From: a virus
DNA length: 31,507 bases
IMG/VR virus record: IMGVR_UViG_3300025684_000044
Location: 1-31,507 of that record
Reading direction: 5' to 3' (one strand)
Shown here: one piece after another, positions 3,399 to 26,540 of the stretch
Layout: each line of letters opens with the position of its first letter
How positions within the stretch are numbered: position 1 is the stretch's first letter
The notes under the pieces: generated by a model
Told to the model about the DNA's origin: nothing
What the model saw: only the letters and a program-made list of their open reading frames with translations
Database searches by the model: none
Translations under genes and position numbers: made by a program

Positions 3399-4960
3399 TA
3401 TTTGCTTCCTTTTGAATATTGCATTGCCGCTACTTTCGGCTTGTTCTTTTTAGTGACGTATCCGCCTTTGTTCATATAACCACTGTAGTCACCCTTGTCG
3501 TCGTCGGATTCTGTTGTTGCAGATGTACCTGAATCTGTACCAGCTTCGCTACTGCTACTATCATCACTCTTATTATTGTCGCTGGAAGCATTTCCATCAC
3601 CTGTTACCGTTGACAATGAACCGAAATCTGCTTTGTCTACTGCATCAATCCAAGATCCAAACTCATCGTCTGTCATGCTAAAAGGATCAACTTTTTCTCC
3701 TGTACTCGGGTCTGTATGAGCATAATCAGATGCCCAAGTACCACCACCTTCTCTCTCTTGTAACTCAGTAATCTTGGTGCTAGAAGTTGCTTTAAACGAA
3801 GCAGTTTCAGGATCAAAGGTATAGTTGTAGGTTCTAGGCAACTTAGTAGCATCTAGACCTGATGCAATTTTAGAGATCTCATTCGCACGGGTTAATGCGG
3901 CTCTAGACGCACCAACCTCATCGTATAAACGCTGACCCTCAGCGACTAACATACCTACCCCTGGAAAGATAGAACGCTCTACATCTGTTGGTTGGGTCAT
4001 GCGAGAAAAAGCTCTGTCAGCTAATGTAGAACCCGGTTGATCTGCCAAATCTTCTGCGGACAGTGGGCCAAAAGCTTCAGCAAGTTTTGTCCCTAGACGA
4101 TCTGCGTATTGGGGTGTGTACGATTCAAAACCGCCACCGCCGCCTTCATCATCTCCAGTGGGTACACCCACGGAAGGCTCAGTTACAGCTTCTGGTGCTA
4201 CTGGAACACAGGTATCTGTATCGGGGTCATAAATAAAACCTTCACCACATTGTTTATACTCGTTACCGTAAACTTCACGCTGTACGATCTCTCCAGGAGA
4301 CATACGAGTAGACAATTCAGGCTTAAATTCTTCTGGAGTTACTGTTTCTCCGGTGACAGGGTCACGGTACACATAAACAATCCTTCCAGTTTGTGGATCA
4401 ATCTCTTGTGTTAGACGGTACCTAGAGGGCACTACGGGGTCTGGTGCCTCTGGCATAGTAATAATACCTTCAGCCGCCTCTACAACTTTAACTGTAGCCT
4501 TTTCTACTTCGGGCTTGTCTTTTTCTTCAATCTCGTATTCTTCAGACTCAACTTCAGCAATGCGTCCATCTTCAGCCATCAAGCCCATGCCCATCTTGGC
4601 TTCTTGCCGCATCATCTCAAACTGCTTAACCCCATGCCAGCGAACAACATCGGCAGGGATAACGTACTCACCTTCGGATAACATTGCAGGAATATCATCG
4701 GCAACTTCTTGCGGCATTGATCCAGCAGGAATCTCATTGCCAGACTCTTCTTCAATACCAATAGTGACTCCCATGCCACCACACATTAAACCACCCATGT
4801 TCATCTCCGCTCCATCTTCAGCTTGAGCCGCTTTAATAGCTTCGTGGCGAGCCTTCTCCCACGCTTGGAACTCGCCGTCTTCGTTAATATCGGCCTTTTC
4901 TGGAAGAGCCTTGTTTGGATTTTCTTTCTTCATCTTTTCGCCAGCTTCAGTTTTGATCAT
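3398..4960 (-). CDS. Putative virion-associated protein with EF-hand-like loop and MN-x-GG motifs
   Basis: The 520-aa product has several recognisable pieces. Residues 24-35, DINEDGEFQAWE, fit the 12-residue EF-hand loop (D1, N3, D5, G6, F8, E12). Residues 53-59 are MNMGGLM, and 88-118 contain IPAMLSEGEYVIPADVV followed by RWHGVKQFE, a stretch I recall from marine phage proteins of unknown role. A PQTGRIVYVY...PVTGETVTPEEF segment and a Gly-rich linker come next. The final third is Ser/Thr/Asp-rich and ends with MNKGGYV at 496. The ATG overlaps the upstream stop by 4 nt (ATGA). It is probably structural or injected; the function is unknown. Confidence 0.7.
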   Translation of the reverse strand: MIKTEAGEKMKKENPNKALPEKADINEDGEFQAWEKARHEAIKAAQAEDGAEMNMGGLMCGGMGVTIGIEEESGNEIPAGSMPQEVADDIPAMLSEGEYVIPADVVRWHGVKQFEMMRQEAKMGMGLMAEDGRIAEVESEEYEIEEKDKPEVEKATVKVVEAAEGIITMPEAPDPVVPSRYRLTQEIDPQTGRIVYVYRDPVTGETVTPEEFKPELSTRMSPGEIVQREVYGNEYKQCGEGFIYDPDTDTCVPVAPEAVTEPSVGVPTGDDEGGGGGFESYTPQYADRLGTKLAEAFGPLSAEDLADQPGSTLADRAFSRMTQPTDVERSIFPGVGMLVAEGQRLYDEVGASRAALTRANEISKIASGLDATKLPRTYNYTFDPETASFKATSSTKITELQEREGGGTWASDYAHTDPSTGEKVDPFSMTDDEFGSWIDAVDKADFGSLSTVTGDGNASSDNNKSDDSSSSEAGTDSGTSATTESDDDKGDYSGYMNKGGYVTKKNKPKVAAMQYSKGSK

Positions 4961-6429
4961 GATTCTGCCCTGTTATACTCATCCGACATTAAACCGCCAG
5001 CATTCATTTCTCTGTAACGAACATCTGATGGTAGTTCTTCTCCCTTAGATGTTGGTAAAGGCTCAGGTGCTTCGGATTTTTTCCAGTACTTGACACCTTT
5101 TGCGTATACACGATCCCCGATAATAGTTGCCTCATCAGCACCTTTTACTGCTTGACCTGTCTGCATATCTATGAAAAGATGGTTAAACTTAGGATTAAAT
5201 CCTACTTCTACTAAATCTTCTGGTGTGTACTGCTCTAGTACACTTGGGCTATTTGTATATTTGCCATTAACAGAAGCCATAGGAAATTTGTTCTTAGAGG
5301 CTTTAGTTTCTTTACCTAGAATCTTAGCGGCAATATCTCTTCTACCCGCTTGGCCTATAGCAAACTCTGCGTTTTTAACGGTTACTACTGGCATATAGGA
5401 AAGTGCTTTCCCACTGTATGTTTTAGCGTGAAGAGTCTGTAAGGTGTTTAAACTTTTATCAACGCCTTCGCCAACAGAAGAATTTAGATTCTTACGGACT
5501 GCTACTTTTGTACCCTCTTCTACAGGAGCGTATAGCTTCTCGCCCTTATCACCAGCAACCTTGCCAGTCTTTTTTGCAGTATCTTCTAGCATCTTTACTG
5601 TAGCAGACGCATAATTTCGTAGCTCTTCCCCCGCCAACTTAGCTTCGTCTACACCAACGTCCAACGCTTTAGATGCTTTAGTCGCAGTCTTCCCCCCAGG
5701 AATTGCACCTATCGCAGATATAGCAGCCTTGCCATATTCGCCTTCCATAAGGGCTTTACCAGTATTTATAATGGCTTCCGCTGTACCCGCAGGTGATAGG
5801 TCTTCGCCAAACTCCTTAATGCCTTGAGCGTATTCGGCAACGCCCATCTTAGGCTCTGCTTCTTCTTCAGCAGTTTCTGAGAGAACAAGTGGATCAGTCA
5901 TTAATCCACCTGCATTCATTTTAGATTTTTCTACCCAAGTTCCTTCAGGTCCAATCTCATAGAGACCTCCATCTTCTTTCTCAGGTTCTTTAGTTGCACC
6001 GTAGTACACTAAAGGTTTCATTTCTTCAGGCAAATCTAACTCTCTACCTTCTTTTTCAGCTAACTCCCATTCTTCAACGTAAGACTTAGCAATCTCTAAC
6101 GCTTGCTCTGTGGTTAGCTGATCTGCTTGCTCTTCGTCAAGCATTTCATAAAGCTTCTTTCCAATAGCATTATTATGAAGATCCATCTTCTTTCCACGAG
6201 AATCTCCTATACTGCCTACGTATTCTTTAGTACCTAAGATAATATCCGAAGCAAGATCAGGGTACTGAGCATACATTGCTAAAGAAGCACCAATATGCCG
6301 AATAGCATCGTACTTGTTATCTGCTTCATCGTAGTTAGTATCTTCGGCTTTACGAAGATCTTTAACGTAGGTCTGTGCTTTCTCTTTGATGTCAAAAGGA
6401 GCTAAAAACCCAGTATCCCGCTCTGCCAT
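4957..6429 (-). CDS. Polyvalent-like multidomain virion protein
   Basis: The 490-aa product looks modular. Residues 41-90 carry D-A-I-R-H (41-45) and K-M-D-L-H-N-N-A-I-G (81-90), the spaced signature of a DUF6973-like domain as I remember it. MNAGGLM occurs at 171 and again at 475. Residues 237-248 hold an ISAIGAIPGGK segment like the linkers before toxin domains in polymorphic toxins. Residues 409-444 hold VGFNPKFNHLFIDMQTGQAV followed by ADEATIIGDRVYAK, which resembles a module common in large phage polyvalent proteins. Such proteins are often carried in the virion and injected. No catalytic residues can be assigned. It is coupled to both neighbours (1-nt and 4-nt overlaps). Confidence 0.7.
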   Translation of the reverse strand: MAERDTGFLAPFDIKEKAQTYVKDLRKAEDTNYDEADNKYDAIRHIGASLAMYAQYPDLASDIILGTKEYVGSIGDSRGKKMDLHNNAIGKKLYEMLDEEQADQLTTEQALEIAKSYVEEWELAEKEGRELDLPEEMKPLVYYGATKEPEKEDGGLYEIGPEGTWVEKSKMNAGGLMTDPLVLSETAEEEAEPKMGVAEYAQGIKEFGEDLSPAGTAEAIINTGKALMEGEYGKAAISAIGAIPGGKTATKASKALDVGVDEAKLAGEELRNYASATVKMLEDTAKKTGKVAGDKGEKLYAPVEEGTKVAVRKNLNSSVGEGVDKSLNTLQTLHAKTYSGKALSYMPVVTVKNAEFAIGQAGRRDIAAKILGKETKASKNKFPMASVNGKYTNSPSVLEQYTPEDLVEVGFNPKFNHLFIDMQTGQAVKGADEATIIGDRVYAKGVKYWKKSEAPEPLPTSKGEELPSDVRYREMNAGGLMSDEYNRAES

Positions 6430-8772: not shown

Positions 8773-10785
8773 TTAATACCCAAATACGGGGTCCATTGGT
8801 TTCCATCCTGTTTTATTGAAATCATTTCCAAAGTCAAACAAACTTTTTGATTTGGGGCGTGACATGATTCCATAACGGATAGAATCGTATGCGTGATCTG
8901 ATGCGTACCGTGGGTCAATGTCGTCTGTCCCTTTAGGGTCAGTCGGTATTACTTGCATATCCGCAATGATTTGTCTGCATGTGTTAAAAAATATAATTTG
9001 AGGTTGTTCTACCTCTTCGTTGAATTTTAGCAACTCGTGTAATCTGTTTTTTCCTGCAACACGAGAACCTCCAGTACGATCTGATGGTCTCCAGCGGCAT
9101 CCTTCGGCAATCATTTCTTCTGCAATAGACGGACCGGTGTGACCACGGCTGTGCCACGTAGAACTATCCAATACTCCGTACCGAATATCTTCGCCAGACT
9201 CTAGCTCTAAAATTTTTGTTGCAAGTTCTCTTGCCGTATGCTTAGATACGTACAATTCCCTATAGACGTACAGAGTCTCAAAAGCAGGATCTATTGCAAA
9301 CCAATGCACTGCTGAAAACGAACTGTAACCAAAATCGCAAGACCTAAACCTAGTCCAAGTGTGTGGAATATCAAAAGGCTCACAGGTATGCACAGAAATC
9401 TTAAATTCTGGGAATGCAGCCCCATCAGCAATTGTCCAATCACCTTCTAACAACTGTCTACGCTGTTGTTCAGGCATAGAAAGCAAGTTTGCTTCGTACA
9501 TTCCGTCTTGAAACAAGTACGGGTTATCTTTTAGCGTTGCCGGTATGAATCGACGGTAAAACAAAGGTTCCCCCGCCCTAGAATGGTTTGGAGGAAACCG
9601 CAACTCTTCGTTTGATTCTAAATCACGAGGAACGAACGTTTTGTTAGCTGGTGAAGGGTCAATAAACATTTGTTTGACCCATCCGTGGCCAGGACCTCCC
9701 GGGTTCGTGGTAGCTCGCATACAAAGGGGTAGCTTAGGGTCTGTAGTACGCAAACGAGAACGCATGTAGTCCCAAGAGAATGGAGTAGGGTGTTGAGTGA
9801 GTTCGTCGAACCCGATCCATGTAAAAGCCTGTCCCTGATAGCGCAAAACATCATCTTCTCTGTCCAAATACGTAAACCAAAGTCTCGCTCCGCTAGGGAA
9901 CGTCCACTGTGATTTGCGCTCTGACCATCTTGCGCTCTTAAATACTTTTGGATATAGCTCCTGAGACTTCCACACAAGCTCTCTTAGCTCATCTGAACGC
10001 CTACGTAGTAGGAGACCATTAAAGTTAGCATTTGAAACGTATCTGAGGGGATCTACGAGCAATGCGTAGGACTTCCCACCCCCTGCAGCACCTCCGTAAA
10101 GCACTTCCCGCTCTGGTGCAGACAAAAAGTCTGTTTGCGGGCCTTCATTTGGCTTAAATATAACGTTTTGTGCTTCTTCAGCCTCTTTATTCTCGTCAAT
10201 GACCTGAATTTGCTTCTGAGTCTTAAGCCTACCCTTGTCAGTGACGTAATCATCTATGTTTTCTAAAGCATCTTCGCTTAATTTACCGGATTCAACGGCT
10301 TCTTCGGCAACTAAACGCTTTAATTCAAGCTCCATATCCCTTAATTTGCGGGAAAGTTGCTTTTTCTTCTTAGTTTTCTCTTTTTGTTCTTTATTTTGAT
10401 TCTTGGAGAAGTGTTTTTCCCCAGCAAAGTTGTTTGCCTTAGTCTGTGCATCCTTCCAAGCTGGAAGTTTAGCGCAGATTTCGTTAAATTCTTCTGCAAC
10501 CTTCTGGTACGAACACTGCGAACCAATTTGAGTTGTGAGGAAGTCTGCAACTTTACGGTAGGCAACCCCATTACGGCAGGCTTGCATACCCTCAATTAGA
10601 ATCTTTAAATCATCAGTGCGTAGTTTGTAGACCGCCTGCCCCGTTTCTTTATCTTTGTAAGGCATCCTGTCGTAGATGTACGGGCGGTACGCCTTACCTC
10701 TAGGGGTTCGCACAACGATTTCGGGGTACAACTCTTCAGCAATACCCCGTATATCTTCATCTTCTATGTAGTCGTAAAGACTCAT
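8773..10785 (-). CDS. terL: Terminase large subunit (ATPase and nuclease)
   Basis: TerL pumps DNA into the prohead and cuts the concatemer. This 670-aa protein has Walker A GGAAGGGKS (231-239), Walker B FTWIGFDE (321-328, D327/E328) and a TTNPGG coupling-type motif (359-364). The RNase H-like nuclease domain has acidic residues at D483 (SCDFGYSS), D540 (GVLDSSTW) and D630/D634 (ASDHAYDS). About 215 residues precede the ATPase: a probable helix-turn-helix (RNGVAYRKVADFL... about 71-104) and a Lys-rich coiled coil (130-200). Many TerL proteins are 450-550 aa, so this extension is unusual. The gene overlaps the terS stop by 1 nt. Confidence 0.95.
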   Translation of the reverse strand: MSLYDYIEDEDIRGIAEELYPEIVVRTPRGKAYRPYIYDRMPYKDKETGQAVYKLRTDDLKILIEGMQACRNGVAYRKVADFLTTQIGSQCSYQKVAEEFNEICAKLPAWKDAQTKANNFAGEKHFSKNQNKEQKEKTKKKKQLSRKLRDMELELKRLVAEEAVESGKLSEDALENIDDYVTDKGRLKTQKQIQVIDENKEAEEAQNVIFKPNEGPQTDFLSAPEREVLYGGAAGGGKSYALLVDPLRYVSNANFNGLLLRRRSDELRELVWKSQELYPKVFKSARWSERKSQWTFPSGARLWFTYLDREDDVLRYQGQAFTWIGFDELTQHPTPFSWDYMRSRLRTTDPKLPLCMRATTNPGGPGHGWVKQMFIDPSPANKTFVPRDLESNEELRFPPNHSRAGEPLFYRRFIPATLKDNPYLFQDGMYEANLLSMPEQQRRQLLEGDWTIADGAAFPEFKISVHTCEPFDIPHTWTRFRSCDFGYSSFSAVHWFAIDPAFETLYVYRELYVSKHTARELATKILELESGEDIRYGVLDSSTWHSRGHTGPSIAEEMIAEGCRWRPSDRTGGSRVAGKNRLHELLKFNEEVEQPQIIFFNTCRQIIADMQVIPTDPKGTDDIDPRYASDHAYDSIRYGIMSRPKSKSLFDFGNDFNKTGWKPMDPVFGY

Positions 10786-13893: not shown

Positions 13894-14502
13894 TTATTTT
13901 ACCCTCTCAATAATTGAATCAATGCCAGAATCCTTTTTATAACATGCAAGACATTCTATGCATTTTTGACCAGTACAATTCTCATTCTTATACCCACCAT
14001 GCGAAACGTTATTGAATACCTTGTGAAAATGAACTGGTGGTTCAATTTGTACGCAATCTATCTTGGGGTTGGAATAGATTAAAATCATGTTCTTTGGTGG
14101 GTGATACTGTTTGGAATATTTAAACAGTTTAGTGACTAGGCTTTTTCGTTTCGTCCACAATGCGAAACTAGTGTGCGGATTCTTTTTGCAGATATTCACT
14201 AGGTTAATTAAATGCGTCATGTTGATCAATTCACCATGCCCATTAAACCGAAAGAATGCGGAATTAATAACAGGCAAGAAATCTTCAATCAATATTGATT
14301 TACTCAATAAATCAGAATTGAATTGGAATGCAGGTTGGCAATTTTTCCGGTAAGTATTCAACATGCGATGCGAATAGCAGGAACCACAAATTGAGTCGGT
14401 ATCTTTCATCTTGATACAAAACTCATTAGTAACTGTATTCGTATTAATTGCCGGAATACCTGAAAGCTTACCGGACATTTTAGAAACTTTAACAATATTC
14501 AT
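13894..14502 (-). CDS. GP88-family phage protein with two Cys clusters
   Basis: The 202-aa product begins with VKVSKMSGKLSGIPAINTN and has ICGSCYS (38-44), CQPAFQFNSDLLS (55-67), INSAFFRFNGHGELIN (79-94) and KNPHTSFALWTKR (107-119). This is the pattern of the phage 'gene product 88' family. Cys are arranged C39-x2-C42 and C176-x4-C181-x2-C184-x2-C187, a spacing compatible with zinc or iron-sulfur binding. The family has no established biochemical role that I know. A GGGAG ribosome site sits in the last codons of the preceding gene. Confidence 0.8.
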   Translation of the reverse strand: MNIVKVSKMSGKLSGIPAINTNTVTNEFCIKMKDTDSICGSCYSHRMLNTYRKNCQPAFQFNSDLLSKSILIEDFLPVINSAFFRFNGHGELINMTHLINLVNICKKNPHTSFALWTKRKSLVTKLFKYSKQYHPPKNMILIYSNPKIDCVQIEPPVHFHKVFNNVSHGGYKNENCTGQKCIECLACYKKDSGIDSIIERVK

Positions 14503-16203: not shown

Positions 16204-16413
16204 CCCCTCAAGATGTTCTGACTTTGCAAGGTAGTATTCATGCAATCCATTGATGTGGTGCATATCGTCCACATCCTCCTTCAGAACGCTCGCCAGAGCT
16301 TCCACAAGCTTCAGAGACGTACGCAAATCATGTGGCGACATATCCATCGCATTACGACTCAACATCGCTGTCGCTTCCCGTAGGTTCTCTGCCATTTCAG
16401 TTATGCCACACAT
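16183..16413 (-). CDS. Hypothetical helical protein, 76 aa
   Basis: The product MCGITEMAENLREATAMLSR then NAMDMSPHDLRTSLKLVEAL and a C-terminal helix with HHINGLHEYYLAKSEHLEG. It appears all-helical; no family recognised. The ATG at 16413 overlaps the methyltransferase end by 13 nt and has GGAGA 8 nt upstream, inside that gene. Tight overlap with the methyltransferase suggests co-expression, possibly a modulator, but no direct evidence. Confidence 0.7.
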   Translation of the reverse strand: MCGITEMAENLREATAMLSRNAMDMSPHDLRTSLKLVEALASVLKEDVDDMHHINGLHEYYLAKSEHLEGLNIEVE

Positions 16414-17357
16414 AATTCTTTCTCCGCTTCACATAATCCTTTGAAGATGTGGGCAACCACATCCACTGTCCATCCATTGCCTAGCATCTTGTACCGTTGT
16501 GTATTGGACACACCCTCAGTGTATCCCTCTGGTACAGTTTGCAAACGCTCGCATTCTAGTGGTGTAAGCTTACGCCAGAGTGTCTCGCCTACTGCAATCT
16601 TGGGTTCACGATTACCACCAGTACATGCATTTAGTGTGGGTGACTTACCTTCAATATGATACACCCGTTTCATCAGGTCATACCCATTCACATCAGCCAG
16701 ACCGACATGGCATAATCCATCCTCACTAAACACCAGTTGACGACGACTCTTTTCAAAGTATGAAGTAAGGTTTCCACCCTTCCAATAATTAGCGTCCAAA
16801 CAGTGGGACTTGTCACGATCCACAATGCCATGCTCAATGATATCCTTCAGTTTAATGTTCTTGTCTGTGATAGCTGTATCAAACGGGATGTTTGTCCAAT
16901 ACAACCGCTTACGATTCTGTGCAGAAAACAGATTGGAATTGATCTCAATCGGTTTAACTCCAAGCATATCTGAAATAACATATTCAGATTCCTTACGCAT
17001 TTTGACATTCTCCAACAGAAAGTATTTGGGTTGTGTCTCATTCTTAATGCGTACGAATTCAAAGAATAGTTTTGATCTAGGATCATCAAAGTTCAGTTGA
17101 CCACCCGCAAAGCTAAAGCCTTGGCATGGTGATCCACCAATCAGCAGATCAATGTCAGCAAGGTCATCACCCTTCACATCACGTACGTCCCCAATATGGA
17201 TCGTATCGGGATAGTTTTTCTTGGCGATCTCAATCGCATACTTATCCACTTCCGATGCGTAATACGCATTAACTGGGATACCCAAACGATCCAATGCAAT
17301 GCGTCCACACGACATGCCATCAAACAGTGAACACACGTTTAAAGATTTACGCATCAT
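16401..17357 (-). CDS. DNA (cytosine-5) methyltransferase
   Basis: The enzyme transfers a methyl group from S-adenosylmethionine to carbon 5 of cytosine in a target sequence. The 318-aa protein has the ordered C5-MTase motifs: I, SLFDGMSCGRIAL (10-22); IV, GGSPCQGFS with catalytic C78; VI, ENV (116-118); VIII, QNRKRLYW (147-154); IX, LTPLECERLQ (264-273); X, MLGNGWTVDVV (291-301). The variable target region (about 165-260) is short and ends with TLNACTGGNREPKI. No restriction enzyme gene is adjacent, so it is probably an orphan that shields phage DNA or alters its expression. The start overlaps the previous stop (TAATG). Confidence 0.95.
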   Translation of the reverse strand: MMRKSLNVCSLFDGMSCGRIALDRLGIPVNAYYASEVDKYAIEIAKKNYPDTIHIGDVRDVKGDDLADIDLLIGGSPCQGFSFAGGQLNFDDPRSKLFFEFVRIKNETQPKYFLLENVKMRKESEYVISDMLGVKPIEINSNLFSAQNRKRLYWTNIPFDTAITDKNIKLKDIIEHGIVDRDKSHCLDANYWKGGNLTSYFEKSRRQLVFSEDGLCHVGLADVNGYDLMKRVYHIEGKSPTLNACTGGNREPKIAVGETLWRKLTPLECERLQTVPEGYTEGVSNTQRYKMLGNGWTVDVVAHIFKGLCEAEKELCVA

Positions 17358-18962: not shown

Positions 18963-18998
18963 ACTGAGACTAAGTTAGTTTATAGGGAGATGTCAACA

Positions 18999-19799
18999 GT
19001 GAATGCAAAAGAATTTATTAGCAGCTTAGATATACGTGATGGAGAAACCAAGCGTGTCTCGTGTCCTGAGTGTGGTGGGCGTAATACATTCACCGTGTCT
19101 CGTAAAGACGGGCGTGTCTTGTACAACTGCTACAAGGCATCATGCCGTACGAAAGGTAGTATGTCGAGAAGAAGGTCTCTAGATGACGTTGAGAGGCTCT
19201 TAAACAGGGGTATATGCGATGTTACAGACACAGGTAATACCTACCTACCTGAGTTCACCTTACCCCCCAATATGACAGTGAATTTAGAAAGAGATGCGTG
19301 TCTTGAATACATGGACGATATGAACATCCAGCCGTCTGTCGATGCTGGGCATACGAATATCATGTACGACTTTGCTCAAGATCGTTGTGTCTTCTTGATC
19401 TATGACGATAACAAGAATATGATCGGTGCAGTGGGTAGAGCATTACGAAAGGGTGTCTTACCTAAATGGAAACGATACGACAAAAGGAAAGACCTCATGT
19501 TCTTCTGTGGAACTAAACGTGGTACAGCCGTTCTGGTTGAAGATTGTGCCAGTGCCTGTACGGTATTTGCCTCTGGCTATACGGGTGTAGCCTTATTGGG
19601 TACATCACTCAACGATCATCATATCCATCAACTGCGTGTCTTTGATAGAGTCATTGTGGCTTTAGATGCAGATGCATCAGACAAAGCAATTAAAATGCAG
19701 AAAATGCTTGCGCCACATGTAACATCTGAGCTACTATTCTTAACAGATGACCTGAAGTATTTTACTCCCGAATGCGTTAGGTCATTGCTTACCAAGTAA
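18999..19799 (+). CDS. Toprim DNA primase
   Basis: It should lay RNA primers for lagging-strand synthesis. The protein (266 aa from this start) has a zinc ribbon with C22, C25 (CPEC), C44 and C49, and a Toprim fold with Glu181 (VLVEDCASA) and D223/D225 (VALDADASD). This is like the primase half of T7 gp4 without the helicase, which is a separate gene at 21109. GTG at 18999 is preferred because GGGAG lies 9 nt upstream; an in-frame ATG at 18990 abuts that site with no spacing. A terminator follows the gene. It contains many copies of a GTGTCTT word. Confidence 0.88.
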   Translation: MNAKEFISSLDIRDGETKRVSCPECGGRNTFTVSRKDGRVLYNCYKASCRTKGSMSRRRSLDDVERLLNRGICDVTDTGNTYLPEFTLPPNMTVNLERDACLEYMDDMNIQPSVDAGHTNIMYDFAQDRCVFLIYDDNKNMIGAVGRALRKGVLPKWKRYDKRKDLMFFCGTKRGTAVLVEDCASACTVFASGYTGVALLGTSLNDHHIHQLRVFDRVIVALDADASDKAIKMQKMLAPHVTSELLFLTDDLKYFTPECVRSLLTK

Positions 19800-20997: not shown

Positions 20998-21143
20998 TGC
21001 CTAGAAAGAAGAATAGCCCTGCGTACGGGAAGGGCGATTGGAAACGTCCCGTAGACGAGAAAAAGTTCGCTGAGAATTATGATCGTATTTTTAATAAGGG
21101 AGACAAGCATGAAACCGGAACTAATACAACTCCTCCTAAGTAA
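20997..21143 (+). CDS. Small basic protein, 48 aa
   Basis: ATG at 20997 overlaps the previous stop. The peptide is MPRKKNSPAYGKGDWKRPVD then EKKFAENYDRIFNKGDKHET and a short tail. The 'RPVD-x-KKF-x-ENYDRIF' pattern occurs in small uncharacterised phage proteins near replication genes. It overlaps the helicase gene by 35 nt and contains the helicase ribosome site. Confidence 0.7.
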   Translation: MPRKKNSPAYGKGDWKRPVDEKKFAENYDRIFNKGDKHETGTNTTPPK

Positions 21144-22335
21144 GGAGTTCTTTACTAACAACAGGCATCGTATCCGTGCTTCCATGTTTGAGGACACGGA
21201 TTACCTGCCAGTTTACAAAAGTATTATACGAGCACATGAGAGGTCAGAAGATGGAGACATTACTGTCCAAGATGTGGCTGCGCTGTACGACGTGGATAAC
21301 CCCACGGAGAGCCGTTCAAAGAAAGAAAACGTACGTATACTATTACGTGAGTTGTCGGATCGGCCACCGCTATCGCTTGACGTTGCTGAAGAAGTACTCC
21401 AACAATCATGGCGGACTGAGATCGGTAGGGATATTGCTCACCTCGGATCACAGATAGTCAATGGTGAAGTCCAAGACTTAGTATCACTTAAACGACTCAT
21501 AGATAAGACACAAGACGACTTCATGCCCCATATAGAGGTCAAACCTTGTACCAAGGATGTCTTTGAACTACTCAAGGAAAACGAAGAGGATACCCGCTGG
21601 ACGTTTAACGTACGAGCACTGCGGGATAAGCTTCCAGGAATTGCAGGTGGGGAACTATGTATTATATTCGCCAGACCAGAAACAGGAAAGACTGCAAGCC
21701 ATGTATCCTTCTGCTACGGACCAGACGGATTCGCAGAGCAAGGAGCTAGTGTCCACACCTTTGTGAACGAAGAGAAGGCAACACGGACGATGCTAAGAGC
21801 TATGTCCGCCTTTACCGGTATTACTAAGGAAGAGATCTATGAAGACCCTAAGTTTGTCGCCAACGAATGGCGTACGATCTATGACAATGTCAACATGTAT
21901 GACGCACAGGGTGTCACCATTGAACAGATTGATGCCTACTGCGAGAACCATAAGCCAGACGTACTGGTTGTGGATCAGCTAGATAAAGTACAAGTGCATG
22001 GCAACTTCAGTCGTACCGATGAGAAGTTACGTGAGATATACACACAAGCTCGTGAGATTGCTAAACGCCATGACCTTGCATTCATTGCAATCAGTCAGGC
22101 ATCTGCAGACGCAGAGGGCAAGACTAGGCTCAATCCTTCCGAAATGGAAGGCAGTAAGACCGGCAAGTTTGCTGAAGCAGATATTATTATCGGTATCGGT
22201 AAGCATGATCAATCAGGAGTAGATGATGAGCCAGATTACACTAGACACCTCACAGTAGGAAAGAACAAGATCACGGGATGGCATGGCACCATTATTTGCG
22301 AAATACAACCAAAGCTATCTCGCTACGTTGATTGA
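21109..22335 (+). CDS. DnaB-type replicative helicase
   Basis: The 408-aa protein has a helical N-terminal region (1-140) and a RecA-like core. Walker A is ARPETGKT (188-195), where the second residue after Pro is Glu rather than the usual Gly. Walker B is DVLVVDQLD (284-292), and AISQAS (Q330) matches the DnaB-family H3-type sensor. It should unwind the fork ahead of the polymerase at 22346 and work with the separate Toprim primase. ATG at 21109 has AAGGGAG 6 nt upstream; the open frame to 21079 lacks a ribosome site. Confidence 0.85.
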   Translation: MKPELIQLLLSKEFFTNNRHRIRASMFEDTDYLPVYKSIIRAHERSEDGDITVQDVAALYDVDNPTESRSKKENVRILLRELSDRPPLSLDVAEEVLQQSWRTEIGRDIAHLGSQIVNGEVQDLVSLKRLIDKTQDDFMPHIEVKPCTKDVFELLKENEEDTRWTFNVRALRDKLPGIAGGELCIIFARPETGKTASHVSFCYGPDGFAEQGASVHTFVNEEKATRTMLRAMSAFTGITKEEIYEDPKFVANEWRTIYDNVNMYDAQGVTIEQIDAYCENHKPDVLVVDQLDKVQVHGNFSRTDEKLREIYTQAREIAKRHDLAFIAISQASADAEGKTRLNPSEMEGSKTGKFAEADIIIGIGKHDQSGVDDEPDYTRHLTVGKNKITGWHGTIICEIQPKLSRYVD

Positions 22336-22345
22336 TAGGTCCGAT

Positions 22346-24454
22346 ATGTATGTACTAGGAATAGACATTGAGACGACAGTACAGAAGGCTGAACGTGGTT
22401 TGGATGGTAGCCCATTCAATCCTAACAACCATCTTGTGTCTGTGGGTGCTCAGTTCTTACACGATGAGACAGGCGAGTACTTCTTCTTTAACCACAACAA
22501 AGTCGAGTGCAACCCAAAGGAAGCCCACTTCAAGCTACAGCAGATGATTGAGTTAGCCGACGTAATCGTAGCTCACAATGCTAAGTTTGATATCCTTTGG
22601 CTGCAGGAAACAGGATTCAATATTGAGTGCGCTGTTTACTGCACAATGATTGGTGAGTATGTACTAGCCCGTGGGCAGAAGATGCCATTGTCGTTAGAAG
22701 AGACTGCCAAGCGCAGGAAGGTTACACTCAAGCGTTCTGACCTGATGGAAGAGACCTTCAAGAAAGGAATCGGCTATGAGCAGATGGACCCAGAGATTGT
22801 AGAGACGTACGGACGTGGTGACGTAATATCCTGTCTGGAAGTCTACGAATCTCAGATGCATGACTACAGGCAACCTCACTTTACAGGATTACGAAAAGTC
22901 AGGGACATGATGAATGAAATGATGTTCGTACTGTTGGAAATGGAACGGAACGGAATTTGCATTGATATTGAATCACTGGACGATGTAGAGAAAGAATTCA
23001 CTGAAGAGCGCAACAAATTAGACACACGGCTACAGCAGATTGTTAGTACAGTTATGGGTGACACTCCCGTCAACCTGAACTCACCGGCCCAGCTATCTGA
23101 AGTAGTCTACTCTCGGCGTGTACTGGACAAGAATAAGTGGCGTGAACTATTTAATGTAGGCATTGCCGCTAACGGCAAACCCTTACCACGTCCACGTATG
23201 TCGCCTAAAGAGTTTGCGCTTGCAGTAAAGAACAACTCAACAATTCTCCACCGCACCAGAGGCGTACAATGTTCTGAGTGCAGGGGTATTGGTACTGTCC
23301 AGAAGACTAAGAAGGATGGCAAGCCGTATAAGAATCGTAGCAAGTGTGTTACCTGCAACGGTGTTGGGGCTGTCTATAAACCGACAGACAAGGTAGCAGG
23401 GTTCAAGCTAACACCTTCCTCTGTGCAGGATGTATCTGCTAACGGCTTCAAGACAGAAAAGAACACCCTACAGTTTTTACTGGCTCAGGCGCAACGCAAA
23501 GGCTCGCAGGAGGCGATTGAGTTCCTACAAGGGATGCGTAGGCTCAACGCCCTAAACGTCTACCTGAACTCATTCTGTGGAGGTATGAGGCGTAATACCC
23601 GTAGTGATGGCGTATTGCATACGACTTTTAACCAATGCATTACTTCTACTGGACGCTTGTCTTCTTCTGATCCTAACTTCCAGAATCAACCACGCAGTGG
23701 GACATTCCCCATTCGTAAGTGTGTCGTATCACGCTTTGAAGGTGGTGAGATTATGGAGGCTGACTTCAGCGGTCTAGAGTTCCGTGTAGCCGGTGAACTG
23801 TCCAAGGATGGTCAGATATACAATGACATCATGACAGGTAAGGATGTACACAAGCAGACTGCTTCTATTATCAACCAAAAGTCTTCTGAGGAGATTACTA
23901 AGGATGAGAGGCAACAGGCGAAGGCGTATACGTTTGCGCCGCTCTACGGCGGTCAGGGGGCGCAGGAGGCTCCACATGTTCAACAGTACTTCAAAGAGTA
24001 CTTCAACATCTACGAAGGACTCGCAGAGTGGCACGACAAACTCAAAAGAGGAGTCTTAAGAAATGGTACGGTAACCCTACCTTCTGGACGACAATTCTAC
24101 TGGCCTAACGTTGAACGCAAGCAAGGCGGTAGGATTTCGTACGCCACACAGATTGTAAACTATCCTGTGCAATCCTTTGCTACTGCGGACATTGTTCCGT
24201 TGGCTTGCATACGTGTACACGAAATGATGAAAGATCGACAGGTTAAATCGTTATGTGTATTGACTGTACATGACTCTATCGTCGTTGACGTATATCCTGG
24301 AGAGCAAGAGATCATGAAAGATATTCTTGCAGAAGGTATGGAAGGGGTTGCAATGGAAGTCAAAAAACGGTTTAATTACGATATGGTAATTCCACTCGCC
24401 ATTGAGATAAAGAGTGGATCAAATTGGCTAAATGGAAAAGTTATTTATGAGTGA
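22346..24454 (+). CDS. Family A DNA polymerase with 3'-5' exonuclease and DnaJ-type zinc insertion
   Basis: This 702-aa replicative polymerase has exonuclease motifs D7/E9 (GIDIETT), D82 (HNAKFDILW) and D159 (YGRGDVIS). The palm has STGRLSSSDPNFQNQPR (434-450), motif A with D473 (EADFSGLEFR), O-helix RQQAKAYTFAPLYG (522-535, R522, K526, F530, Y534) and motif C HDS (642-644). Between exonuclease and palm, residues 309-341 hold two CxxCxGxG units (CSECRGIG and CVTCNGVG), as in the DnaJ central domain; HMO-2011-type phages are known for this. ATG 22346 follows AGG at 6-nt spacing; the frame extends upstream within the helicase gene. Confidence 0.95.
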   Translation: MYVLGIDIETTVQKAERGLDGSPFNPNNHLVSVGAQFLHDETGEYFFFNHNKVECNPKEAHFKLQQMIELADVIVAHNAKFDILWLQETGFNIECAVYCTMIGEYVLARGQKMPLSLEETAKRRKVTLKRSDLMEETFKKGIGYEQMDPEIVETYGRGDVISCLEVYESQMHDYRQPHFTGLRKVRDMMNEMMFVLLEMERNGICIDIESLDDVEKEFTEERNKLDTRLQQIVSTVMGDTPVNLNSPAQLSEVVYSRRVLDKNKWRELFNVGIAANGKPLPRPRMSPKEFALAVKNNSTILHRTRGVQCSECRGIGTVQKTKKDGKPYKNRSKCVTCNGVGAVYKPTDKVAGFKLTPSSVQDVSANGFKTEKNTLQFLLAQAQRKGSQEAIEFLQGMRRLNALNVYLNSFCGGMRRNTRSDGVLHTTFNQCITSTGRLSSSDPNFQNQPRSGTFPIRKCVVSRFEGGEIMEADFSGLEFRVAGELSKDGQIYNDIMTGKDVHKQTASIINQKSSEEITKDERQQAKAYTFAPLYGGQGAQEAPHVQQYFKEYFNIYEGLAEWHDKLKRGVLRNGTVTLPSGRQFYWPNVERKQGGRISYATQIVNYPVQSFATADIVPLACIRVHEMMKDRQVKSLCVLTVHDSIVVDVYPGEQEIMKDILAEGMEGVAMEVKKRFNYDMVIPLAIEIKSGSNWLNGKVIYE

Positions 24455-25289
24455 AGTAGCACTATATAACGGTATGACTCCTGAGCAGTTAATGGCTGCG
24501 ATGGGAGCGGGTGAACCTCAAGAAGCAACAGGCAATCGTTTGCCGTTGTTAAAGGTCAACTACCAGACTGAGGATGACGATGGTAATACGCTCAAGCGTG
24601 GTGCTTTTTGTTTAACTCTTCCGCAGGGTACGGTGTATAGCGAAGACGTAACTGTACGTGTATTTGCGGATTACATGCAGTACTTGGATTACGATCCAAA
24701 CGAAAATGCGGTTGTTAACAAGACAATCATTCACCGTGTGGGCGATGAGCCTATTGATGAAACAGGTGGTGTACGATGTGGCAAACCCACGTCTAAAGAA
24801 CTGCGTGAGCTTGATGCTGACGTAAAGCTTAAGTACAAAGACATTACATGTTTTAGGTACCTGTACTCTACGGTGACAATGGTTGGGGCTACAGACGGGG
24901 CAGGGAATGCCGTTGAGGTACAGGATGTACCGTGTATGTTCCGACTTAAGGGTGCTTCGTTCTTGTCTTTCTCACAAGATGTGATTGAGCCATGCAAGAA
25001 CCTTAAGCTTAAGTTTATGCAAGTAGCAAGCAAGCTTGTGACTACACGTCAAAAGAACGGCTCTGTTACTTACTTTACTGTAGGCTTTGAACCTGACTTC
25101 CAGAACAAGATGGAAATTGGAACGGACGATCTTCAGTTTATGTCCACTATACTGGACACAGTAAATGCGGAGAACAAGTCTATTATTGCAAAGCATAATG
25201 CCGCCTTGTACAGCAAGCAATCTGATGTACATGAGGAGAAGATTGTCTCCGAAGTCGAGGACTACTTAGAAATCGACGAGGCATCATAA
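24447..25289 (+). CDS. Unrecognised replication-module protein, possible ssDNA-binding protein
   Basis: The 280-aa product starts MSEVALYNGMTPEQLMAAMG and has RLPLLKVNYQTEDDDGNTL, then beta-rich runs (RVFADYMQYLDYDPNENAVV, FRYLYSTVTMVGATDGAGNA, FMQVASKLVTTRQKNGSVTY FTVGFEP in parts). The final 40 residues are acidic and helical (EEKIVSEVEDYLEIDEAS), like the acidic tails of ssDNA-binding proteins. It sits between polymerase and nuclease, where ssDNA-binding proteins often lie. The role is inferred. ATG 24447 overlaps the polymerase end by 8 nt; an ATG at 24432 is possible. Confidence 0.6.
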   Translation: MSEVALYNGMTPEQLMAAMGAGEPQEATGNRLPLLKVNYQTEDDDGNTLKRGAFCLTLPQGTVYSEDVTVRVFADYMQYLDYDPNENAVVNKTIIHRVGDEPIDETGGVRCGKPTSKELRELDADVKLKYKDITCFRYLYSTVTMVGATDGAGNAVEVQDVPCMFRLKGASFLSFSQDVIEPCKNLKLKFMQVASKLVTTRQKNGSVTYFTVGFEPDFQNKMEIGTDDLQFMSTILDTVNAENKSIIAKHNAALYSKQSDVHEEKIVSEVEDYLEIDEAS

Positions 25290-26161
25290 TGTCCGAAATG
25301 CCTCATAAATACGAGGTTCAGATACGTGAATATCTATCTAAGTTGTCGGCGGGGGAAGCTCCCCCTGTCGATGACCAATGGATAGATCAAGCATGTGAAG
25401 ACTTTCGTAATGCCCTAGTAAAGCAGTTTACCCGTGATGGCGGACGTGATTTTACGGTACGTATGTCAAACGCAGGACGGCCTCGTTGCCAGTTATGGTG
25501 GCAGAAGAATCATCCTGAAGAGGCTACTAAGCCTTCGTACGACTTCATCATGAAGATGCTGTTGGGGGATGTTATTGAGGTATTGGCCTTGCTTTTAATG
25601 CGGGGTGCGGGTATACCAGTCCAGTCCTACCACGGCAAGGTAGAACTCCAGCTTGACGACGATGCCACCATTAAAGGTGAATATGATGTTGTCATTGACG
25701 GTAAGGTATGGGATATCAAGTCCTCCTCCCCGTTTGCCTTTGAGCACAAATTCAAAGACTTCAATGCTGTCAAGGATGACGACTCTTTTGGTTATGTCGC
25801 CCAAGGCTTCGGCTACGCTAAAGCTAACGGAATGCCCTTTGGCGGTTGGATTGTAATCAATAAGTCTACAGGCGAATGGAAGTTTATTGAAGCAGATAAC
25901 TCTGTAGCAGACGAGTACACTGAAGTCATCAAGGATACCATTGACTACATTGCTACAGATAAACCGTTTGCTAGATGCTTTGAGGAAATTGACGAGACTT
26001 TCCGCAGTAAACCAACCGGTAACAAATACATCGCAAAGAATTGTATCTACTGCGACTACAAGTTCAAGTGTTGGCCTACCCTTCAGTACAGGCGAGTAGA
26101 AGCGTCACAGGCTAAGAATAAGCCTTGGAGATATTACACGGTGTACAATGACGTTCAGTAA
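25289..26161 (+). CDS. Cas4/RecB-type PD-(D/E)XK exonuclease
   Basis: The 290-aa protein has a nuclease core: G93-D94-V95-I96-E97, D133 (GEYDVVIDG), D142-I143-K144 (WDIKSSS, the DxK form of E-x-K) and Q162...Y166 (AQGFGYA). Cys at 230, 252, 255 and 261 (NCIYCDYKFKC), with Cys36 or Cys67 as a further candidate, resemble the iron-sulfur cluster of Cas4/AddB-like nucleases. It is likely to process DNA ends in recombination or degrade host DNA. It is followed by endonuclease I with a 14-nt overlap, and starts at the previous stop (TAATG). Confidence 0.8.
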   Translation: MSEMPHKYEVQIREYLSKLSAGEAPPVDDQWIDQACEDFRNALVKQFTRDGGRDFTVRMSNAGRPRCQLWWQKNHPEEATKPSYDFIMKMLLGDVIEVLALLLMRGAGIPVQSYHGKVELQLDDDATIKGEYDVVIDGKVWDIKSSSPFAFEHKFKDFNAVKDDDSFGYVAQGFGYAKANGMPFGGWIVINKSTGEWKFIEADNSVADEYTEVIKDTIDYIATDKPFARCFEEIDETFRSKPTGNKYIAKNCIYCDYKFKCWPTLQYRRVEASQAKNKPWRYYTVYNDVQ

Positions 26162-26540
26162 GGCGGCTAGGAAATATGGATACAAATCAGGCTTGGAGAA
26201 AACTGTCGCTGATCAAATCAAAAAGCGGGGACTACGTGTTAAGTATGAAGACCCATCTTCACGAATTAGCTTTACACAACCCGCTACTGATAGAACGTAT
26301 ACTCCTGATTTTGTCCTGCCTAATGGTATTGTGGTTGAGACAAAAGGCAGGTTCACCTTAGAGGACCGTAAGAAGCACCTATGGATACAGGAGCAGTCAG
26401 ACCAAGATATACGGTTTGTCTTCTCCAGTTCTAAGGCTAAGATACGCAAGGGATCAAAGACAACATACGGTATGTGGTGTGATAAGCATGGCTTCCTGTA
26501 TGCGGACAAACAAATACCAGAGGACTGGTTCAATGAGTAA
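26148..26540 (+). CDS. T7-type endonuclease I (Holliday junction resolvase)
   Basis: It resolves branched DNA made during replication and recombination and may help degrade host DNA. The 130-aa protein has KSGLEKTVADQI (E17), YTPDFVLPNGIVVETKG with D54, E64 and K66, then DRKKHLWIQ, IRFVFSS and SKTTYGMWCDKHG. E17/D54/E64/K66 correspond to the T7 gp3 catalytic set E20/D55/E65/K67, and the length is close to the T7 enzyme. It overlaps both neighbours. Confidence 0.9.
   Translation: MTFSKAARKYGYKSGLEKTVADQIKKRGLRVKYEDPSSRISFTQPATDRTYTPDFVLPNGIVVETKGRFTLEDRKKHLWIQEQSDQDIRFVFSSSKAKIRKGSKTTYGMWCDKHGFLYADKQIPEDWFNE

Follow-up and report, generated by a model that had tools for sequence, protein, structure and literature searches.

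A predicted half-DnaJ zinc hairpin in the thumb of an HMO-2011-type phage DNA polymerase, a possible built-in DNA clamp

The polymerase and its cysteine motifs

The question raised by this locus is what two CxxCxGxG motifs of the DnaJ type contribute to a phage replicative DNA polymerase. The window analysed is the whole 31,507-nucleotide stretch of the IMG/VR record IMGVR_UViG_3300025684_000044, in which the polymerase is encoded by a stop-free frame of 702 residues (Table 1). This start agrees better with the homologues than does the longer ORF from 22283. The product matches DNA_pol_A (PF00476, E 3.7e-63) and a 3′-5′ exonuclease family (PF01612, E 3.9e-5) in Pfam, placing it among the family A polymerases that carry a 3′-5′ exonuclease domain. 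In an alignment of 54 sequences, exonuclease residues D7, E9, N78, D82, Y155 and D159 and polymerase residues D473, E478, R522, K526, F530, H642 and D643 are invariant; their assignment to the two catalytic activities is presumed from knowledge of the family. Based on this invariance, the enzyme looks like an active, proofreading replicative polymerase. The invariant phenylalanine F530 (23933-23935) is at the position equivalent to residue 762 of E. coli Pol I, a residue that serves elsewhere as a lifestyle marker.

Both motifs, with C309, C312, C334 and C337, are present in the translation at exactly the positions given in the preliminary description. Two such motifs were found in none of 20,000 composition-preserving shuffles. 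The Pfam family PF00684 (DnaJ_CXXCXGXG) matches residues 306-345 (E 1.3e-4) with 22.6 bits against a curated cut-off of 32.7, a shortfall that is expected because half of the domain only is present. Between its exonuclease and polymerase catalytic regions, the enzyme carries part of a DnaJ central domain, including two CxxCxGxG motifs, and a partial domain of this kind is the defining criterion of HMO-2011-type DNA polymerases (PMC9038755; PMC6918029). The observation is already published; the window polymerase is of a known kind, and its sequence is new.

Table 1. Features of the window polymerase and its thumb insertion, with neighbouring genes that are candidate partners.
Feature	Residues	Position in window	Strand	Basis
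Family A DNA polymerase, intact 3′-5′ exonuclease and HMO-2011-type thumb insertion		22346..24454	+	Pfam, PHROG, invariant residues
Thumb helix H	208-237	22967..23056	+	Model; aligned with Klenow ERNGVKID...
Thumb helix H1	247-255	23084..23110	+	Model, Klenow alignment
Thumb insertion	about 256-371	23111..23458	+	Klenow profile gap; cellular Pol I alignment break
First beta strand of ribbon stalk	302-308	23249..23269	+	Full model and insert-only model
First zinc knuckle, CSECRGIG	309-316	23270..23293	+	Motif, homologue alignment
Basic loop between knuckles, TVQKTKKDGKPYKNRSK, net charge +6	317-333	23294..23344	+	Alignment, charge count
Second zinc knuckle, CVTCNGVG	334-341	23345..23368	+	Motif, homologue alignment
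Second beta strand of ribbon stalk	342-350	23369..23395	+	Model
Thumb helices H2 and I	372-417	23459..23596	+	Model, Klenow alignment
Primase (zinc ribbon and Toprim), candidate partner		18990..19799	+	phrog_47 E 2.2e-21
DnaB-like replicative helicase, directly upstream of polymerase, candidate partner		21079..22335	+	PF03796 E 2.8e-16; phrog_19
285-residue product just downstream of polymerase, candidate partner or SSB		24432..25289	+	Gene order

A predicted half-DnaJ hairpin between thumb helices

The motifs had been placed between the exonuclease and the palm. This is true along the sequence, but in both the Klenow alignment and the structure model the insertion, of about 110 residues, is within the thumb subdomain, between helices H1 and H2. 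In the Klenow profile alignment, H1 is matched (NLNSPAQLSEVVYSRR with NLSSTKQLQTILFEKQ), a gap of about 100 residues follows, and the alignment restarts at H2. Likewise, the profile match to cellular Pol I relatives from GTDB genomes ends at profile positions 251-268 in nearly all of them and restarts at 355-416, and no cysteine quartet was seen in these relatives in the profile match. The AlphaFold model of the polymerase (pLDDT 91.3, pTM 0.85) has H2 at residues 372-385 and helix I at 388-417, so that thumb helices flank the insertion on both sides; the insertion itself contains two small extra helices (262-269 and 287-296) and a two-stranded beta ribbon. Outside the insertion, the enzyme has the fold of the Pol I large fragment, structure comparison giving Bst Pol I-DNA complexes with Z about 36 over 548 residues. 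Lying at the edge of the cleft that binds DNA, the insertion may help the polymerase to grip it.

Since one knuckle trails the first strand of the ribbon and the other precedes the second, the two are predicted to be opposite each other at its tip. In the full model and in a model of the insert alone, both knuckles, of the CxxC(x)G(x)G form, are at this tip, where zinc is predicted to bind. The model thus brings them together on a single ribbon, and the wide separation of the four cysteines that the preliminary description had named as a refuting result did not occur. That description also counted two zinc units. A reading as two separate units is rejected, as the spacing, the model and the DnaJ alignment all suit one site, and the motif pair is best read as a single predicted zinc site corresponding to half of the DnaJ Cys-rich domain, repeats 2-3.

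When a profile of the insertion was compared with PDB sequences, the best match (1exk, E 1.2e-4) was to repeats 2-3 of the DnaJ Cys-rich domain from E. coli, followed by human DnaJA3 and lambda Q at E 0.03-0.04 (7ubj for lambda Q, E 0.037). PF00684 matches all 53 inserts compared; in PHROG, the inserts most often match Q-like antiterminators, two of these families matching 49 and 37 of the 53. The insert modelled alone (pLDDT 78) has 17 listed structural matches with Z of at least 2, all with low values (2.1-3.7), in keeping with the small size of the motif. All 17 are DnaJ proteins, anti-TRAP, UvrA, BSD2 (alone or with Rubisco) or DNA-bound lambda Q, with no unrelated fold among them. The most fitting description of the insertion is that of a half-DnaJ zinc hairpin, for which one zinc is predicted.

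It shares with DnaJ (Hsp40) a pair of CxxCxGxG motifs capping a beta ribbon, with a spacing of 25 that is close to that of repeats 2-3 in 1exk. However, a DnaJ protein has a J domain, four repeats and two zinc sites, whereas here there are two repeats and one predicted site, no J domain was found in the Pfam scan of the polymerase, and the module has a Lys-rich loop and is set in a polymerase thumb. By these features the insertion does not qualify as a DnaJ protein. It is very unlikely that it recruits or mimics the DnaJ/DnaK chaperone machinery, as the name of the domain and the use of DnaJ in lambda replication might suggest and as has been raised by analogy (PMC9038755). Although the best solved sequence relative is from E. 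coli DnaJ, two of the four repeats and one of the two zinc sites are retained, the Pfam matches of the polymerase are to polymerase, exonuclease and Cys-rich families only, and the half-module is also present in the non-chaperones lambda Q, UvrA and anti-TRAP, as well as in BSD2. A chaperone role is rejected as the main reading, given a half domain without a J domain. The hairpin in lambda Q (7ubl, Z 2.6) is likewise a half-DnaJ module in a nucleic-acid-binding phage protein, although the host protein and its function are different and the scores are weak.

Conservation and lineage of the insertion

The arrangement of the four cysteines (C-x2-C ... C-x2-C) is kept in 273 of 276 polymerase-like ORFs, a set that includes overlapping records and represents 246 distinct proteins. 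These 273 are all of the homologues examined; the three ORFs without the cysteines are outgroups (VpV262, Vibrio 1.209.O, and Villemi). A position-restricted count misses six truncated or frame-shifted sequences that do have the motif. Because the patterns used to recruit homologues were placed outside the insertion, its conservation is not an artefact of the search. Between the eight-residue motifs there are either 17 or 29 residues across the 273 ORFs. The glycines of the second motif are looser, the strict form of both motifs being present in 182 of 240. In one record (L176, 2001-4153), the polymerase match extends over 712 codons and the open frame over 595 residues, an apparent frameshift that may be real or due to sequencing.

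The loop between the knuckles is also constrained. Lys or Arg is found at the position of K320 in 52 of the 54 aligned sequences and at that of K322 in all 54, and G325 is invariant. The net charge of the loop in the homologues has a median of +5 and a minimum of +2, against a mean of 0.1 for windows of equal length in the same proteins; the loop is among the 3-4 % of windows with the highest charge in the protein that carries it. For the window polymerase, the insertion has a net charge of +14 and the whole protein +2.

The insertion had been proposed as a mark of the HMO-2011 lineage, and this agrees with the published definition and with its presence in the closest isolates. Identity to the window polymerase is 51.8 % for CRP-235, 39.6 % for HMO-2011, and 37.6 % for CRP-2, with no isolate above 52 %; closer relatives are uncultivated IMG/VR contigs (75-99 % identity). 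The closest relatives retain the insertion, so the loss that would have spoken against the lineage was not seen. As a group, the HMO-2011-type polymerases (HMO-2011, CRP-1/2/3/212/235/738, and HTVC033P; 38-52 % identity) share with the window the gene order primase-helicase-polymerase-unknown-exonuclease-endonuclease I-RNR. In a tree computed with the insertion removed, the window polymerase groups with HMO-2011-type sequences, in a 20-member clade that includes CRP-3, CRP-212, CRP-235, and CRP-738 (support 99/99). It differs from the isolates in having its own branch, with IMG/VR relatives, beside CRP-3/CRP-235/CRP-738. The zinc polymerases are not strictly one clade, since two long-branch outgroups, Villemi and PD-AB9, fall inside with weak support (84/78). 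Clean monophyly is therefore rejected, the tree needing two changes, and the placement of these two is probably due to long-branch attraction.

By tblastn of the insertion against 50,697 records, significant E-values were obtained only for HMO-2011-type polymerases; the next match, at E 0.2, is to LR756504, where the protein has CxxCxGxG repeats but is unrelated. The window is also from an HMO-2011-type phage by its capsid (up to 71 % identity to the group), its large terminase TerL (up to 75 %) and its syntenic gene order. It has been reported, however, that in CRP-9, CRP-13, and 173 metagenomic genomes the structural modules are of the HMO type but the polymerase is of another type, and that in eight genomes an HMO-type polymerase occurs with cobavirus structural genes (PMC8528129). 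The insertion thus marks the HMO-2011-type polymerase and tracks the replication module, but does not mark the virion or the whole phage as a lineage.

Close whole-protein relatives are also found among phiKMV-like and Friunavirus polymerases (Villemi and PD-AB9, hhalign E 2.6e-63), which have an insertion at the same thumb site but without the zinc cysteines. Homology of the two insertions is not supported, the insert-only hhalign score being 10.5 against up to 15.0 for column shuffles; a residual basic motif in the phiKMV-like insertion is similar by eye. Several zinc-less related polymerases are annotated as two ORFs, split near the boundary of exonuclease/thumb and palm (L034, L035, L037, and L039, from Vibrio Rostov-5342/ICP2-like, Methylophilales MEP402, ctOsX528, and Alcaligenes QDWS535), some with a small or HNH gene in between. 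These splits are possibly caused by homing elements.

Possible roles of the insertion

In some ocean viromes, HMO-2011-type polymerases account for as much as 19.7 % of the family A polymerases (PMC9038755), and no test of the role of their diagnostic insertion was found in the literature searched. With its placement between H1 and H2 as a single basic ribbon, predicted to be stapled by zinc, what had been a curiosity of annotation becomes a question of how a single-subunit polymerase grips DNA, and one that could interest enzyme engineers. There is about an even chance that the insertion is a built-in DNA-gripping clamp, and perhaps a docking site as well. This reading is drawn from the thumb site, the invariant cysteines, the fixed-length basic loop, and the occurrence of the module in proteins that act on nucleic acids. 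Most simply, a rigid, zinc-stapled, Lys-rich ribbon in the thumb would add a DNA contact. The positively charged ribbon would grow out of the thumb between H1 and H2, with one Zn2+ held by the four cysteines fixing its end. The basic loop (KxKKxGxPYKNxxK type) could then contact the duplex or the template leaving the active site, and the hairpin would raise DNA affinity and processivity. This would resemble the role of the thioredoxin-bound thumb insertion of T7 polymerase, without a borrowed host protein.

Work on the thumb of related enzymes bears on this reading. In T7 polymerase, residues 346-355 and 360-373 (H1 and H2) crosslink to the template (PMC9198812), and lysines of its thioredoxin-binding domain (TBD) touch the DNA backbone in simulation (PMC5984650). 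Truncation of the thumb of E. coli Pol I (Klenow) lowered processivity and fidelity (Minnick, 1996, as described in PMC10061031). Thumb insertions of the T7 and human mitochondrial polymerases serve processivity, and Lys-rich thumb insertions matter for the activity of plant organellar polymerases (PMC7699545).

The likeness to the T7 TBD, a thumb insertion with basic residues that is a processivity element according to the literature, is one of place and role, not of homology. The TBD lies between H and H1, one element earlier, needs host thioredoxin and is without a four-cysteine site, and no sequence similarity to the window insertion is shown. From the Klenow alignment and the model, the window insertion follows H1 and is thus not of the T7 TBD type; that the two occupy the same site is ruled out by the alignment and by the T7 numbering (H1 339-348, with the TBD ahead of it; PMC9198812). 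It can be suggested tentatively that the insertion is a self-contained clamp, stapled by zinc at the tip of the thumb, which evolved independently as a counterpart to the clamp that T7 polymerase forms with thioredoxin. If so, an abundant group of marine phages would need neither a processivity factor from the host nor a sliding clamp for processive replication. Counting against a clamp, relatives free of the insertion, VpV262 among them, presumably replicate genomes of similar size.

The positive charge and the conservation would be compatible with protein docking too. A hairpin that is mainly a docking arm, coupling the polymerase to the replisome through the helicase, the primase or the possible SSB encoded downstream, is a less likely reading than the clamp. 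It would be consistent with the reports that each polymerase-helicase combination is exclusive to its phage group (PMC8528129) and that the T7 SSB binds the polymerase via the TBD (PMC7699545). The helicase, the polymerase and the downstream gene also adjoin or are near one another in the window, CRP-235, and HMO-2011; the product of the downstream gene has no Pfam or PHROG match and occupies the same position as CRP-235 gp12 and HMO-2011 gp13. On the other hand, VpV262 has a separate helicase gene yet no insertion, and a basic loop of fixed length, the outer feature under the tightest constraint, would suit nucleic acid no less well. By analogy with the T7 TBD, clamp and docking arm may both be true.

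It is improbable that the insertion is only structural or regulatory, either a stably folded decoration or a zinc/redox switch acting by oxidation of the CxxC pairs. Such pairs can be redox active, but the invariant Lys and Gly beside the cysteines and the fixed loop length point to a binding surface, and no gene for a redox partner was identified among the window ORFs that were scanned.

Further genes were noted elsewhere in the window. Downstream of the polymerase are a Cas4-type exonuclease (25289-26161, phrog_1990) and a T7-like endonuclease I (26148-26540, PF05367, E 9.9e-51). A C5-cytosine DNA methyltransferase (16401-17357, reverse strand, by Pfam) is found amid small genes that separate the structural module from the replication module. 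A Gene product 88-like protein with several cysteines (13894-14502, reverse strand) matches PF17338 at E 9e-5, slightly under the curated cut-off. In a long protein of the structural module (4957-6429, reverse strand), residues 304-443 match the mycobacteriophage L5 gp82 family (PF25735, E 2e-6). The major capsid proteins G003:C1:47548-48429 and G005:C1:42384-43259, which belong to the relatives L022 and L191, give two alignment blocks; a stretch of about 60 residues, equivalent to 149-206 in the window capsid, is absent while the frame stays open, so that a capsid insertion domain varying between subgroups is possible. For the large terminase (8773-10785, reverse strand), the C-terminal ~470 residues alone align with most of the group and much of the first ~200 aligns further with CRP-738 only, suggesting a variable N-terminal domain.
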